Positions 53,054 through 59,324 of a DNA stretch of 59,324 nucleotides are shown here, one piece after another; position 1 is the first letter of the stretch, and every line of letters begins with the position of its first letter. Both the position numbers and the translations under genes were made by a program. Location: positions 1 through 59,324 of the forward strand of contig PUNJ01000053.1 in the NCBI GenBank assembly GCA_003551705.1. Reading direction: 5' to 3'. The DNA is from Chloroflexota bacterium. Its GTDB lineage: Bacteria; Chloroflexota; Dehalococcoidia; UBA2247; RBG-13-53-26. A model generated the notes under the pieces. It was not told the origin of the DNA, did not search any database, and worked only from the letters and a program-made list of their open reading frames with translations.

Positions 53054-54025
53054 ATGCACAACCAAGATAGTACGGCTCGCAAGACTGTTTCCGACTTCGT
53101 CAAGGCATTCAGTTGTTCCTATGCCATGGCCGGCAATATGTCCAAGGTACTGGAACTCGAAAACCAAGAGGTTTTGTCAAGTTCCGTGATTGGTTTCGGC
53201 TCGGGGCTGGCCACCATGGGCGACACCTGCGGTGCCGTGAGCGCCGCCATAGCTGTGCTGGGCGCCAGGTTCCCCGAAACGCCCTTTGCCGAACTATGTT
53301 GCCTTGCCCATGATTTCTATACTGAACTCGAGCGGCGTGCAGGGGCAGCGACTTGCGGAGGCGTGCATGGCGGCAAACACCTGGCAAAGAACTTCAGGCG
53401 AGCCATACTCACAGGCAAGACAAGAGCCTGTACCAGGGTCATCCGAACAGGTGTCGAAATCCTGGCGGAGATCGACCATGACCATCAATCATTTGCGGCC
53501 ACCTGTAGCGACCGGGCCGGCATCAAAGCGATAGCCCGGCACTTTGAACAAGAATCATTCCATTGCTGCCGCACTACGGTCCTGGCCATCGGGCAAAGGC
53601 TGGACCTTCCGGTAGAGGGCCTGCTCGCACCATCTCAGGGGTTCTGTGGCGGTATCGGCTTCAATGGGACCATGTGCGGGGCCATATCCGGCGGTGTCCT
53701 TTGTCTCGGACTTGCGGCAAGCCTGGACCTGAGTTCCGCCAGACTGGACAATACGATGAGAATTGTCCTGCACGCGCTCATTAGGAGCGACGGCATCTTT
53801 CGGGACGAAAAACGTTTTCCCCCGGCCAAACTCTATGCCCAGTGCCGGGAAGTCTACCATGCTATCGAAAAAGACTACGGGTCCGCTCATTGCCGGCAAA
53901 TTCTGGGCCTGCAACTGGACATTGAGGAAGACGGAGAGCATTTCATCCGAGCAGGAATGCTCGACAGGTGCCGGAGCATATCAAGGACGGTGGCTGGAAC
54001 GGTGGCGGATGTGCTAACGTCATAG
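53054..54025 (+). CDS. tandem-domain C_GCAxxG_C_C family protein
   Basis: 323 residues with two copies of the Cys-rich C_GCAxxG_C_C-type domain, a family of putative redox proteins common in anaerobes. First copy: C21, GDTCGAVSAAIAVLG with C59, CC82-83, C101. Second copy: CC171-172, GFCGGIGFNGTMCGAISGG with C198 and C208, C217, C264, C280. The family is normally about 130-150 residues with one domain, so this is a fusion of two. Hydrophobic Gly/Ala segments fit a helix-packed fold. Function unknown; cysteines could bind Fe-S clusters or serve as redox thiols. AGGA lies before the ATG; no nearby redox partner seen. Confidence 0.8.
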   Translation: MHNQDSTARKTVSDFVKAFSCSYAMAGNMSKVLELENQEVLSSSVIGFGSGLATMGDTCGAVSAAIAVLGARFPETPFAELCCLAHDFYTELERRAGAATCGGVHGGKHLAKNFRRAILTGKTRACTRVIRTGVEILAEIDHDHQSFAATCSDRAGIKAIARHFEQESFHCCRTTVLAIGQRLDLPVEGLLAPSQGFCGGIGFNGTMCGAISGGVLCLGLAASLDLSSARLDNTMRIVLHALIRSDGIFRDEKRFPPAKLYAQCREVYHAIEKDYGSAHCRQILGLQLDIEEDGEHFIRAGMLDRCRSISRTVAGTVADVLTS

Positions 54026-55555: not shown

Positions 55556-55627
55556 CATACATCCCTACAGCCGATTGAATAGACCGGTCCAGACTCGGAC
55601 CTTGTCAAGGAAAAAAGGAGCCTCACC

Positions 55628-56458
55628 TTGATCTACGCCGGTTGCGATCTTGGCCTGGTAGCAGCCAAAACAGTAATAATCAAGGACACGGAGTTACTCG
55701 ACCTCGCAATCGTCCCGTACACATGCTTTCCTCGCGAGGCAGCCGCTCAGGCACTCGAAGCCGTCCTGTTCAGCTCGGGCATCTCCCGGCAGGACATCGG
55801 CCGATACCTGGCCACGGGGGCCGGTGCGGAGGCGGTCCCCAACGCTGACGGTACCGTTCCAGATACGGTGAGTTTGTGCCGGGCGATTCGAGAAATAGAC
55901 CCTGAAATAGGGACTGTTCTCGACGTGGGTGGCGCGACTTTCAATGCTTACACCATCGATCATGGCGGAATAATGCTGGAAACCGCCATCACTGACATGT
56001 GCACAGCCGGCAACGGCATTCTTCTCGAGACCATGGCGGCCACCTTGGAGATGTCGCTGGAGGAGATTATTGAGGCTTCACTTAATTCCACTAACCCTTT
56101 GCCCATTACGCACCAGTGCGTGGTCTTCGCCCAGAGTGAAGTGGTCTCTCTCTTGAACATCGGCCATGACCGGCAGGATATCTTCGCCGGTATAGCCTAC
56201 TATGTAGCCAACCGCATAGCCAGTGTTGCAGGCCGCACCGCCCCACTTGGCCGGATGGTCATGATCGGCGGCGTTGCCAAGAACGCCCTTGTAATGCGGT
56301 ATCTGGGCCAATGCGGCCTGAAGCTTACCAACCTGGGAAACCTGGATCCCCAGGCTGTAGTTGCTTATGGCGCAGCCCTTTTGGCAGCCGATCAGGCAAA
56401 CAGTCCTGGAAACACGAGAATCCAGTCGCACCGGCCGCAAGGAAAAGGCAAGACATGA
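55628..56458 (+). CDS. BcrA/BadF/HgdC-type ATPase, divergent nucleotide motif
   Basis: 276 residues, BadF/BadG/BcrA/BcrD ATPase family: acetate-kinase-like fold, homodimer or heterodimer with a bridging [4Fe-4S] cluster that drives ATP-coupled electron transfer to 2-hydroxyacyl-CoA dehydratases or benzoyl-CoA reductase. Cluster Cys candidates are C125 (DMCTAGNG) and C164 (THQCVVFAQSEV). The usual IGGQD(A/S)K ATPase loop reads DVGGATFNAY (99-108) here, so ATP hydrolysis may be weak or absent. TTG start 7 nt after AAAAAAGGAG. The stop overlaps the next gene's ATG (ATGA), so the two form a likely heterodimer. Confidence 0.85.
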   Translation: MIYAGCDLGLVAAKTVIIKDTELLDLAIVPYTCFPREAAAQALEAVLFSSGISRQDIGRYLATGAGAEAVPNADGTVPDTVSLCRAIREIDPEIGTVLDVGGATFNAYTIDHGGIMLETAITDMCTAGNGILLETMAATLEMSLEEIIEASLNSTNPLPITHQCVVFAQSEVVSLLNIGHDRQDIFAGIAYYVANRIASVAGRTAPLGRMVMIGGVAKNALVMRYLGQCGLKLTNLGNLDPQAVVAYGAALLAADQANSPGNTRIQSHRPQGKGKT

Positions 56459-57261
56459 TAGTAGCCGGATGCGACATCGGGGCCAGTACATGCAAGTCCG
56501 TTATCCTGCAAGACAGCGCCATAATTGGCTATGAAATCGCCCGGTCCAGGGCGGCAACTGTTCAGGCTGGCATAGCAGTGATGGACACACTACTGCAGCG
56601 CCTGGGACTGTCCTATATCGATCTGGACTGCTGTGTGAGTACGGGCTATGGCAGGAGAATCCTACCCTTCGCACATGACGACGTCAGCGAGATATCGTGC
56701 CACGGTCGGGGAGCATGGTTCCTGGTCCCCTCCATCAGAACCGTACTGGATGGCGGCGGGCAGGACTGTAAGGCCTTGAGGGTGGGCGAGAACGGTACAC
56801 TGGTCGATTTTCGCATGAACTCAAAGTGTGCAGCGGGTACAGGCCGGTCCCTCGAGGTAATGGCAAAGAGCCTCGGAGTGGATGTATCCGAACTAGGACC
56901 CCTCTCCCAGAAGTCCACTACACGGATTGCCTTGCAGAAACCATGCTGTGTCTTAACGGAGATCGAAATCCGGCACCTGGTCCTGCAGGGCAAGAATACA
57001 GCTGATATAGCCGCCGCCATAAACGATCTCATGGCCCGCCAGATACTGCACCTGGCCAGGGACTTGGACGAGATTGAAGAGCGAGTGGGTTTAACTGGGG
57101 GGATCGCCAAGAACGCAGGAGTAGTGCATTGCCTGGAGAGACTGCTGGGTACCACCCTGGTCAGATTCCCGGAAGACCCGCAGATCGTCGGTGCCCTGGG
57201 AGCGGCATTGTTCGCTGCAGACATGGTAAGGCAGGGGACCAACCAGCTTCGTCCAGGCTAG
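56455..57261 (+). CDS. BcrD/HgdC-type activator ATPase, complete motifs
   Basis: 268 residues, the same family as its neighbour. It keeps GCDIGASTCKSVI, the nucleotide loop DGGGQDCKAL (99-108), the cluster Cys C125 in KCAAGTGRSLEVMA and C164/C165 in KPCCVLTEIEI, and GGIAKNAGV. The ATG at 56455 is chosen (overlap ATGA with the preceding stop); an upstream in-frame start lies inside that gene. Together they look like the A/D heterodimer of benzoyl-CoA reductase rather than a HgdC homodimer, but the B/C catalytic subunits are not in the window. Confidence 0.87.
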   Translation: MIVAGCDIGASTCKSVILQDSAIIGYEIARSRAATVQAGIAVMDTLLQRLGLSYIDLDCCVSTGYGRRILPFAHDDVSEISCHGRGAWFLVPSIRTVLDGGGQDCKALRVGENGTLVDFRMNSKCAAGTGRSLEVMAKSLGVDVSELGPLSQKSTTRIALQKPCCVLTEIEIRHLVLQGKNTADIAAAINDLMARQILHLARDLDEIEERVGLTGGIAKNAGVVHCLERLLGTTLVRFPEDPQIVGALGAALFAADMVRQGTNQLRPG

Positions 57262-57301: not shown

Positions 57302-57883
57302 TCATCTCGCCCGGGCAGGCCTCAATGGCCGGTAGTAGACTCTGGGTTCCGTATTAAGGTCCGGCTGCAACTGACGGGGGTGCCTGCCTGATACACCCGT
57401 CTCCTTCTCCTGCAACACCTCTGCCAAGTCCACAAAACGCAAAGCCTTCATTCCGCAACAAACTACACAGAAAGGCTCCAGGCCCTCATCAATCCGGCCC
57501 GCACACAGATCGCATTTCCATACTTTCGGTTTATCCGACAACTCCACCATTACCTCATAGACGCACGATTCCAGGCAAAGGCCGCAACCACTGCACCAGG
57601 TCTCATCAATAACGACGATCCCGTCATCCCGCCGGTATATGGCCGCATCGGGACAGGACTCGATGCACGGTGCGCGCTCACAGTGCATGCAGGGAATGGG
57701 TAAGAACTGCATATTCGCGTGCGGAAAACAGCCACCAGCCGTGTCACGCCCCACCCCTCCCAACGTGTCCACCCTGATCCCGGAGACGCCTTCCAGTCCA
57801 TGCTCCATACGGCAGGCCAAAACGCAAGTCTGGCAGCCTGTGCATCTCGCCATATCAATCACCAGTCCAAGCTTCTGCGGCAT
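57302..57883 (-). CDS. four-cluster ferredoxin subunit of a molybdopterin oxidoreductase
   Basis: 193 residues, DmsB/NrfC/PhsB-type electron-transfer subunit. Four groups of cysteines: C14/17/20/24, C65/68/73/77, C97/100/103/107 and C124/127/139/143, enough for four [4Fe-4S] clusters. It begins with the typical IDMARCTGCQTC motif. It has no Tat signal itself; such subunits are often carried by the catalytic partner. The start overlaps the upstream molybdopterin gene by one base (TGATG), so they form a complex. Confidence 0.93.
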   Translation of the reverse strand: MPQKLGLVIDMARCTGCQTCVLACRMEHGLEGVSGIRVDTLGGVGRDTAGGCFPHANMQFLPIPCMHCERAPCIESCPDAAIYRRDDGIVVIDETWCSGCGLCLESCVYEVMVELSDKPKVWKCDLCAGRIDEGLEPFCVVCCGMKALRFVDLAEVLQEKETGVSGRHPRQLQPDLNTEPRVYYRPLRPARAR

Positions 57884-59324
57884 CAGTGTCCCTCCCGTAC
57901 CTTTTCGACTTCCACCGCCACATCATACAGGGCGGCGTTCGGCTCATACACAGCCTTTTGCGCAGGGTTGATCACGGCATGAGTCAGGTCCTGATGGCTT
58001 CCCTCGGCGAAGTCCTCAGGCCACCATCCCTGGTTCACATTTACAACACCGGGCATTATACCCGCATGCACCCTGGCCCTCATCTGTGCACGGCCCCGGT
58101 CATTGAACACCCGCACCATGTCGCCATTCGCGATTTCCCTGCTTGACGCGTCTATCGGGTTCATCTCCAAGAGCGGTTCGGCGTCCAATACCCTCAAGGA
58201 TGCCACATTGGCAAACACCGAGTGCGTCCGGTAGCGTGTGTGCGCATTCAGAAATACAAGGGGGTACTTCTCGCCTGAAGCCTGTCTTCCTGCAGTGCTC
58301 TCCAAAGGTTCAATGTATACAGGCAGGGCCTGCCCCTGATCAACCAGTTTCTCGCTATAGAACTCCATCCGCCCCGATGGAGTCATGAAGGCCGGCACCT
58401 CAAAAGGTGGCAAGGACACCGGGCCCTGTTTCAAACTGTCAAGCGTCACACCGGCCATGGAAGGATATTCCGAAGCAAGCAGCACTTCTATGAAATCCTC
58501 ATCACCTTCCTCGAAATATTCCCCATACCCCATCCGCCTGCCAATTCCCCGGGCTATTTCCGTGTCCGTCCGGCAGTCCGGCAGGGGTTCTATAACGCGC
58601 TGCTGCAACTGCAGATAACTGTGGACGCCCGGCGATCCTCCCGGCGGCATGTGAAGATTGGTCTGCTCATAGAAAGAACAGGCAGGAAGCACTATGTCTG
58701 CATACTGAGCACTGGCATTCATAAAGAGGTCCGCCACCACAATAAACTCTATATTGGGAAAAAGCTGGTTTCTGATCCGGCTAGCCTCGGGTATCTGATT
58801 AAGCAGGTTGTGTTTGGCAATGAAGAGCGCCTTGACCGGATGCTGGCTTTCGCCCGCCATTGCATCGTACATCTCCAGCACGGGTACGAAAGTACACCTG
58901 CCGCCGGCCCGTATGAAGCCTTTGATGTTCGGTGCGAACGTCCGCGGATATTCGGGGACCATATTTCCGGTAACAGCCGCCAGAGTGCTGATGGCACGGA
59001 AGGTGATGTCACCGTGGAAGGTCCTCTGAAGTCCCATGCCTCTATAAGAAATGGCCGGTTTCATAGTGGCGTATTCAAATGCCAGATCTTGCACTGTCTC
59101 AGCGGGAACCCCCGTTATGGAGGCTACCCTGTCGGGCGTATATGGCCCAACCAGATCGGCCAGCAACTGGAATGCCGGACGGCATTCGATACCGCCGGCC
59201 TCAAAGACCCCGGTGAGAGATGGCGCGATCTCCTGGGAATCGTGCAGGCTGGGTCTTGCCGAGGCGTCGTCCCAGACCACATACTTCCCGCCATCAGTTG
59301 CCGATGTGATATCAGGCTCTCTCA
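57883..59324 (-). CDS. molybdopterin-dependent oxidoreductase catalytic subunit, C-terminal part
   Basis: The frame stays open to the window edge, so the N-terminal third or more (Tat signal, [4Fe-4S] motif) is missing; 480 residues are visible. DMSO-reductase family: QYADIVLPACSFYEQTNLHMPPG, a C-terminal dinucleotide-binding domain starting YPLVFLNAHTRYRTHS and ending with the MNPIDASSREIANGDMVRVFN beta-barrel motif. Substrate class cannot be fixed; acetylene hydratase, transhydroxylase, thiosulfate or polysulfide and DMSO reductase-like enzymes are all possible. It is followed by the four-cluster ferredoxin and lies convergent to the BcrA/D pair. Confidence 0.9.
   Translation of the reverse strand, partial: REPDITSATDGGKYVVWDDASARPSLHDSQEIAPSLTGVFEAGGIECRPAFQLLADLVGPYTPDRVASITGVPAETVQDLAFEYATMKPAISYRGMGLQRTFHGDITFRAISTLAAVTGNMVPEYPRTFAPNIKGFIRAGGRCTFVPVLEMYDAMAGESQHPVKALFIAKHNLLNQIPEASRIRNQLFPNIEFIVVADLFMNASAQYADIVLPACSFYEQTNLHMPPGGSPGVHSYLQLQQRVIEPLPDCRTDTEIARGIGRRMGYGEYFEEGDEDFIEVLLASEYPSMAGVTLDSLKQGPVSLPPFEVPAFMTPSGRMEFYSEKLVDQGQALPVYIEPLESTAGRQASGEKYPLVFLNAHTRYRTHSVFANVASLRVLDAEPLLEMNPIDASSREIANGDMVRVFNDRGRAQMRARVHAGIMPGVVNVNQGWWPEDFAEGSHQDLTHAVINPAQKAVYEPNAALYDVAVEVEKVREGH

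Follow-up and report, generated by a model that had tools for sequence, protein, structure and literature searches.

Activators of the HgdC type are as a rule homodimers, those with solved structures carry a GGQD motif, and a stand-alone homodimeric activator is encoded by a single gene beside its dehydratase. The gene pair described here lies in a window of 59324 bases (the whole stretch of DNA analysed, an entire contig of the Chloroflexota genome G000, contig C73). It has in common with HgdC (1HUX) and HadI (4EHT) the fold family, the two cluster cysteines and the phosphate-1 and adenosine motifs, but differs from them in that two genes encode it, one of the chains is degenerate and no client is encoded close by, the hydroxyacyl-CoA-dehydratase-like (HGD-D, PF06050) genes being found elsewhere. 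In the solved 3-methylbenzoyl-CoA reductase one chain of the MbdP (GGQT)/MbdQ (GGQD) dimer likewise lacks the GGQD aspartate. Class I benzoyl-CoA reductases combine an ATP-binding dimer, holding a bridging [4Fe-4S] cluster, with a catalytic dimer, and for the BZD type only a transient association between these dimers is assumed (PMC11971306); by analogy, the window pair may work like this ATP-binding dimer. Compared with MbdP/MbdQ, BzdP/BzdQ and BcrA/BcrD, however, the pair occupies another branch of the activator tree, adjoins no catalytic genes and includes a chain type that has lost more (GGHS, GGHT or GGAT in the loop, together with R69, K109 and F121 in HgdC numbering).

Tandem GAEx/GGQD pairs from the same class (L052, L072, L102, L117 and the fused L120) also contain one degenerate chain, but their loop reads GAE, they are mostly linked directly to HGD-D genes and they form a separate clade. 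In L120 (4999-6747) one frame of 583 amino acids, located behind two HGD-D genes, joins an activator of GAEG type to one of GGQDCK type, which is natural evidence that pairs of the GAEx/GGQD type act as one unit. The double-cubane cluster protein reductase (DCCP-R, 7YYL) resembles the proposed role of the window pair as an ATP-driven reductase of an HGD-D-family protein, but is encoded by a single gene with an intact GGQD and is more distant in sequence. A limited literature search found no description of an orphan activator pair of this kind.

The two genes lie on the forward strand about 2 kb from the contig end. ORF1 (55628-56458) begins with TTG, 7 nt downstream of an AAGGAG box (55615-55620) that could serve as a Shine-Dalgarno sequence, and ORF2 (56455-57261) begins with ATG. 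The frames overlap by 4 nt (ATGA, 56455-56458) to form a two-gene unit, the true start of ORF2 being 56455 rather than the 56311 of the mechanical ORF listing. Both proteins belong to PF01869 (BcrAD_BadFG; 93.6 bits for ORF1 and 168.4 for ORF2, cut-off 31.5) and to TIGR00241 (acyl-CoA dehydratase activase; 128.5 and 207.2 bits, cut-off 125.4), and their best solved relatives are HadI, HgdC and MbdQ. A scan of genome contigs with ORF1 gave a single match, at 29% identity. The sequence-only reading had described two overlapping ATPases that both keep C125 and C164, the first with a GGAT loop; sequence, profiles and alignment to HgdC, which puts the cysteines at HgdC C127/C166, bear this out. The nucleotide loop reads DVGGATFNA in ORF1 (degenerate phosphate-2 loop DVGGAT, 55922-55939) vs DGGGQDCKA in ORF2, so that GGQD is found only in ORF2; K14 and the loop glycines are intact in ORF1. 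An AlphaFold2 model of ORF1 built from a two-sequence alignment reached a pLDDT of 38 and was not used as evidence.

The first reading also stated that ORF1 had lost GGQD, which stands, except that more than the loop is gone. Five residues (R69, Q106, D107, K109 and F121, HgdC numbering) are invariant across a reference set of 54 activators chosen by GGQD; all five are kept in ORF2 and none in any of eight aligned ORF1 rows (family f1). Although GGQD was itself the criterion by which the reference set was selected, the loss in ORF1 is not chance, since R69, K109 and F121 have gone as well. ORF2 has lost a different set (D125, F169 and R198), while cysteines 127 and 166 are present in 8/8 ORF1 and 9/9 ORF2 rows. 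Seven of these first eight ORF1 rows read GGH[ST], the window copy alone reading GGAT. Over all ORF1-type genes, families f1 and f23 show GGHS, GGHT or GGAT in the loop, G540 and G482 show GGQS or GGQC, and the aspartate is gone from every one. A decaying, non-functional ORF1 would fit two traits of the window copy, a long branch (0.7-0.8 changes per site) and a GGAT shared with no other copy, but the frame is open and preceded by a ribosome-binding box, the cysteines are conserved and the gene is kept in 12 genomes. Moreover, dN/dS is well below 1 among orthologues (0.16-0.19 in three orthologue comparisons of ORF1, the window copy being too diverged for a dS estimate), indicating purifying selection, and spans 0.08-0.23 for ORF2; we consider decay extremely unlikely. 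ORF1 is probably a pseudo-ATPase required for structure and cluster binding, completing a cluster-bridging heterodimer.

Conservation of the pair was followed in ten genomes of the window's family and then in 393 genomes of the class; the assemblies are 63-100% complete, so that absence calls are soft, and ORF boundaries at other loci were called mechanically. Six genomes of the family have ORF1 orthologues (45-49% identical) at a total of seven further loci, an ORF2 orthologue following each time, and a seventh genome, G002, has an ORF2-type fragment at a contig end. The class-wide search added five genomes from two other families, bringing the count to 13 ORF1-type genes in 12 of the 393 genomes, and all 13 have a codirectional ORF2-type neighbour, while none adjoins a catalytic gene (the G531 pair has a second gene that runs into a stretch of N). 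Dehalococcoidia is the probable identity of the class, given that two complete small relatives each contain more than 20 reductive dehalogenase matches. Other neighbours of the pair are conserved only among close relatives, for example panE in G007, G009 and G002, and a Rieske-like gene and others in G001 and G008. The earlier observation that no catalytic genes lie nearby holds in the window and at each orthologous locus examined (two of the contigs concerned span only 3-4 kb). Two independent homodimeric activators that are neighbours by chance, with ORF1 a functional homodimer of altered ATP loop, would agree with the homodimeric rule for HgdC-type activators and with the intact loop glycines and K14 of ORF1. 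Adjacency in 12/12 genomes with frames overlapping or nearly abutting, the different residue sets lost by ORF1 and ORF2, an operon-linked relative described below (L134) and the fusion in the parallel GAEx/GGQD pair argue against this reading, which appears seriously doubtful.

In a tree of 75 activators ORF1 and ORF2 form two clades, each with support of 100/100, that sit inside a 27-row group (97/97) whose remaining rows are single activators, each encoded immediately after a pair of HGD-D genes (type I operons; types I to VI are HGD-D group labels used in this analysis only). The MbdP/MbdQ and GAEx/GGQD tandem pairs are placed elsewhere. The sister relation between ORF1 and ORF2 is moderately supported (89/84), and this support was not retained after addition of L134 and other sequences. 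Three changes are needed on the tree to explain the loss of D107. An AU test rejects ORF1 grouped with MbdP (p = 0.010), but rejects neither a grouping of ORF1 and the GAEx subunits (p = 0.075) nor one that unites the whole pair and MbdPQ (p = 0.061), so that an origin of the asymmetry independent of the benzoyl-CoA reductase pairs is favoured, not proven.

These results bear on whether the pair is a class I benzoyl-CoA reductase A/D module (BcrA/BcrD, BzdP/BzdQ or MbdP/MbdQ) for aromatic degradation, split from its B/C subunits. The family is right, and the asymmetric division of labour that the first reading had likened to A/D pairs is indeed of the same kind as MbdP GGQT/MbdQ GGQD. Predicted benzoate pathways with bzdNOPQ operons have been published for deep-sea Chloroflexi (PMC5736913), which makes the general setting a known one. 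Against this, ORF1 and ORF2 fall far below the cut-offs of the A/D equivalog profiles (TIGR02259, TIGR02261 and TIGR03192), with 81 and 181 bits for BzdQ (cut-off 380), 73 and 140 for BcrA (cut-off 578) and 59 and 113 for BcrD (cut-off 313). The HGD-D proteins of the genome likewise score below every benzoyl-CoA reductase equivalog cut-off, no B/C (N/O) genes lie in the window neighbourhood up to the contig end at 59324 or at the orthologous loci, and the AU test separates ORF1 from MbdP, though not the pair from MbdPQ. The sequence-only reading had proposed kinship with BcrA/BcrD and had named grouping with stand-alone activators as the outcome that would speak against it; both proteins group there, and the kinship is not supported. 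An A/D module is thus quite improbable. Annotation also calls for caution: matches to bcrA/bzdQ in Dehalococcoidia genomes have been interpreted as capacity for aromatic ring reduction (for example PMC10570749), yet some of these ATPases, this pair included, belong outside the benzoyl-CoA reductase line and adjoin no catalytic genes.

An operon-linked relative of the pair, L134 (genome G471, contig C61), encodes in one row two HGD-D proteins, a GGQDCK activator, a GGQSIR activator, a CdhC-like protein and a CooC/MinD-like ATPase. Its first activator is sister to the ORF2 clade (100/96) and its second to the ORF1 clade (91/96). L134 differs from the window in being linked to two HGD-D genes and in its less degenerate ORF1-like chain (GGQS, with R69 and N124 kept). 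Apart from its doubled activator, L134 has the gene order of the type I operon (L017: HGD-D, HGD-D, single activator, CdhC-like, CooC-like), and its HGD-D subunits belong to the clade of types I, V and VI (SH-aLRT 97 per subunit). L134 likely shows the ancestral state of the pair, and the simplest history would be that the activator was duplicated in tandem within the operon, that one copy degenerated and that linkage was lost later.

The other strand of the contig end carries a DmsB/NrfC-like Fer4 iron-sulfur subunit (57302-57883) and a DMSO-reductase-family molybdopterin oxidoreductase of which the contig end leaves only the C-terminal part (57883-59322), both convergent with the pair. The first reading had pointed to this enzyme beside the pair and thought an electron donor for another enzyme possible, and a role in feeding electrons to a different enzyme of this sort would accord with two observations, that the sister pair L040 also adjoins a Mo oxidoreductase and that G005 has two pairs while its single HGD-D pair already has an activator. 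However, the two Mo oxidoreductases are only 26% identical, that of L040 has a twin-arginine-like N terminus and would be exported, and no Mo oxidoreductase was found near the other pair loci; with 22 PF00384 matches in the genome, proximity to such an enzyme is not rare. Service to a different enzyme is very unlikely, and on the grounds of convergent orientation, lack of conservation and abundance of PF00384 the Mo oxidoreductase was rejected as client, both its genes being judged outside the system. Upstream of the pair the window also encodes a 323-residue protein in which a C_GCAxxG_C_C redox domain is duplicated (53054-54025); a comparison of neighbours found no homologue beside other pairs.

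A catalytic partner, which the first reading had not found nearby, is not missing from the genome, where PF06050 gave 11 matches, 10 of them above cut-off. HGD-D genes with an activator beside them are those of type I (contig C54, 15204-17535) and type II (C54, 57373-59663), whereas two pairs on C186 (27828-30180 and 71633-73943) and single genes on C65 and C202 have none directly adjacent. One of the C186 pairs, type V (71633-73943), is the sister of type I and adjoins no activator in any genome of the family, so that a pair of the right clade without its own activator is present. Type I/V HGD-D genes occur in 12/12 genomes with the activator pair vs 23/393 overall, a co-occurrence confounded by descent. 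The client is likely an HGD-D protein of the type I/V clade acted on in trans. Type V has roughly even odds of being the client and is the best single candidate; it is named only as a candidate, because the co-occurrence is confounded, because type V is absent from four of the 12 pair genomes (G005, G482, G510 and G540), because in G005, which has two orphan pairs, the sole HGD-D pair is of type I and already has an activator, and because in G505 type V lies in one row with a type I operon and its activator. Type V as sole partner is weakened by the pair genomes that do not have it and by G505.

Separation of activator subunits has a precedent in the same genome, in which a GAES subunit lies with the type II HGD-D genes on C54 and the GGQD kind on C22; in G002 and G009 the same GGQD kind directly adjoins the GAES subunit. 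At C54 (L018, 7549-8361) the GAES subunit of the type II operon is without its usual GGQD neighbour, and at C22 (L019, 8313-10466) that GGQD type adjoins a GAET subunit and no HGD-D genes, a second separated activator pair.

On sequence evidence, we consider it reasonably probable that the window genes encode a heterodimeric activator with a pseudo-ATPase chain, an HGD-D client encoded elsewhere and an origin by duplication. ORF1 and ORF2 would assemble as an HgdC/BcrAD-family electron activator of ASKHA fold, driven by ATP, with each chain supplying two cysteines (125 and 164) to one subunit-bridging [4Fe-4S] cluster. ATP would be bound and hydrolysed on ORF2, while ORF1, without the catalytic residues, would complete the cluster and the docking surface. 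A ferredoxin would reduce the bridging cluster, and ATP hydrolysis on ORF2 would push the electron into an HGD-D-type dimer (2-hydroxyacyl-CoA dehydratase or benzoyl-CoA-reductase-like), most likely a member of the type I/V clade and, as best candidate, the C186 pair at 71633-73943. The activator may have arisen from a single operon activator that was duplicated in tandem, one copy degenerating before the pair was separated from the catalytic genes. Since G005 has two pairs and one HGD-D pair, we also weighed an independently arisen half-pseudo-ATPase heterodimer with no fixed client that serves as a shared low-potential electron donor for several HGD-D enzymes, which seems rather unlikely. 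The loss of D107 on three activator branches (GGQT, GAEx and GGHS/GGAT) suggests that a single working ATP site is enough for a bridging-cluster activator.

ORF2-type chains also differ behind the second cluster cysteine, where [LM][TA][QE] stands in place of the FAE motif and most chains have a CC doublet. This segment, expected to lie close to the cluster, may indicate that the docking surface is a different one. A single HGD-D gene in G004 (L086, 5037-6344; contig C9, 35043-36083) scores higher with PF06050 (421.7 bits) than any other in the order and has no activator in the 12-kb stretch that contains it; it is possibly a double-cubane-type protein. Finally, operons of HGD-D and activator genes in this class (L134, 6595-12632; L017, 6659-11680; L138, 5195-12685) also encode a CooC/MinD-like ATPase and a small CdhC-like protein (PF03598), and in L138 proteins resembling these two accompany type I and type V HGD-D pairs in one row.
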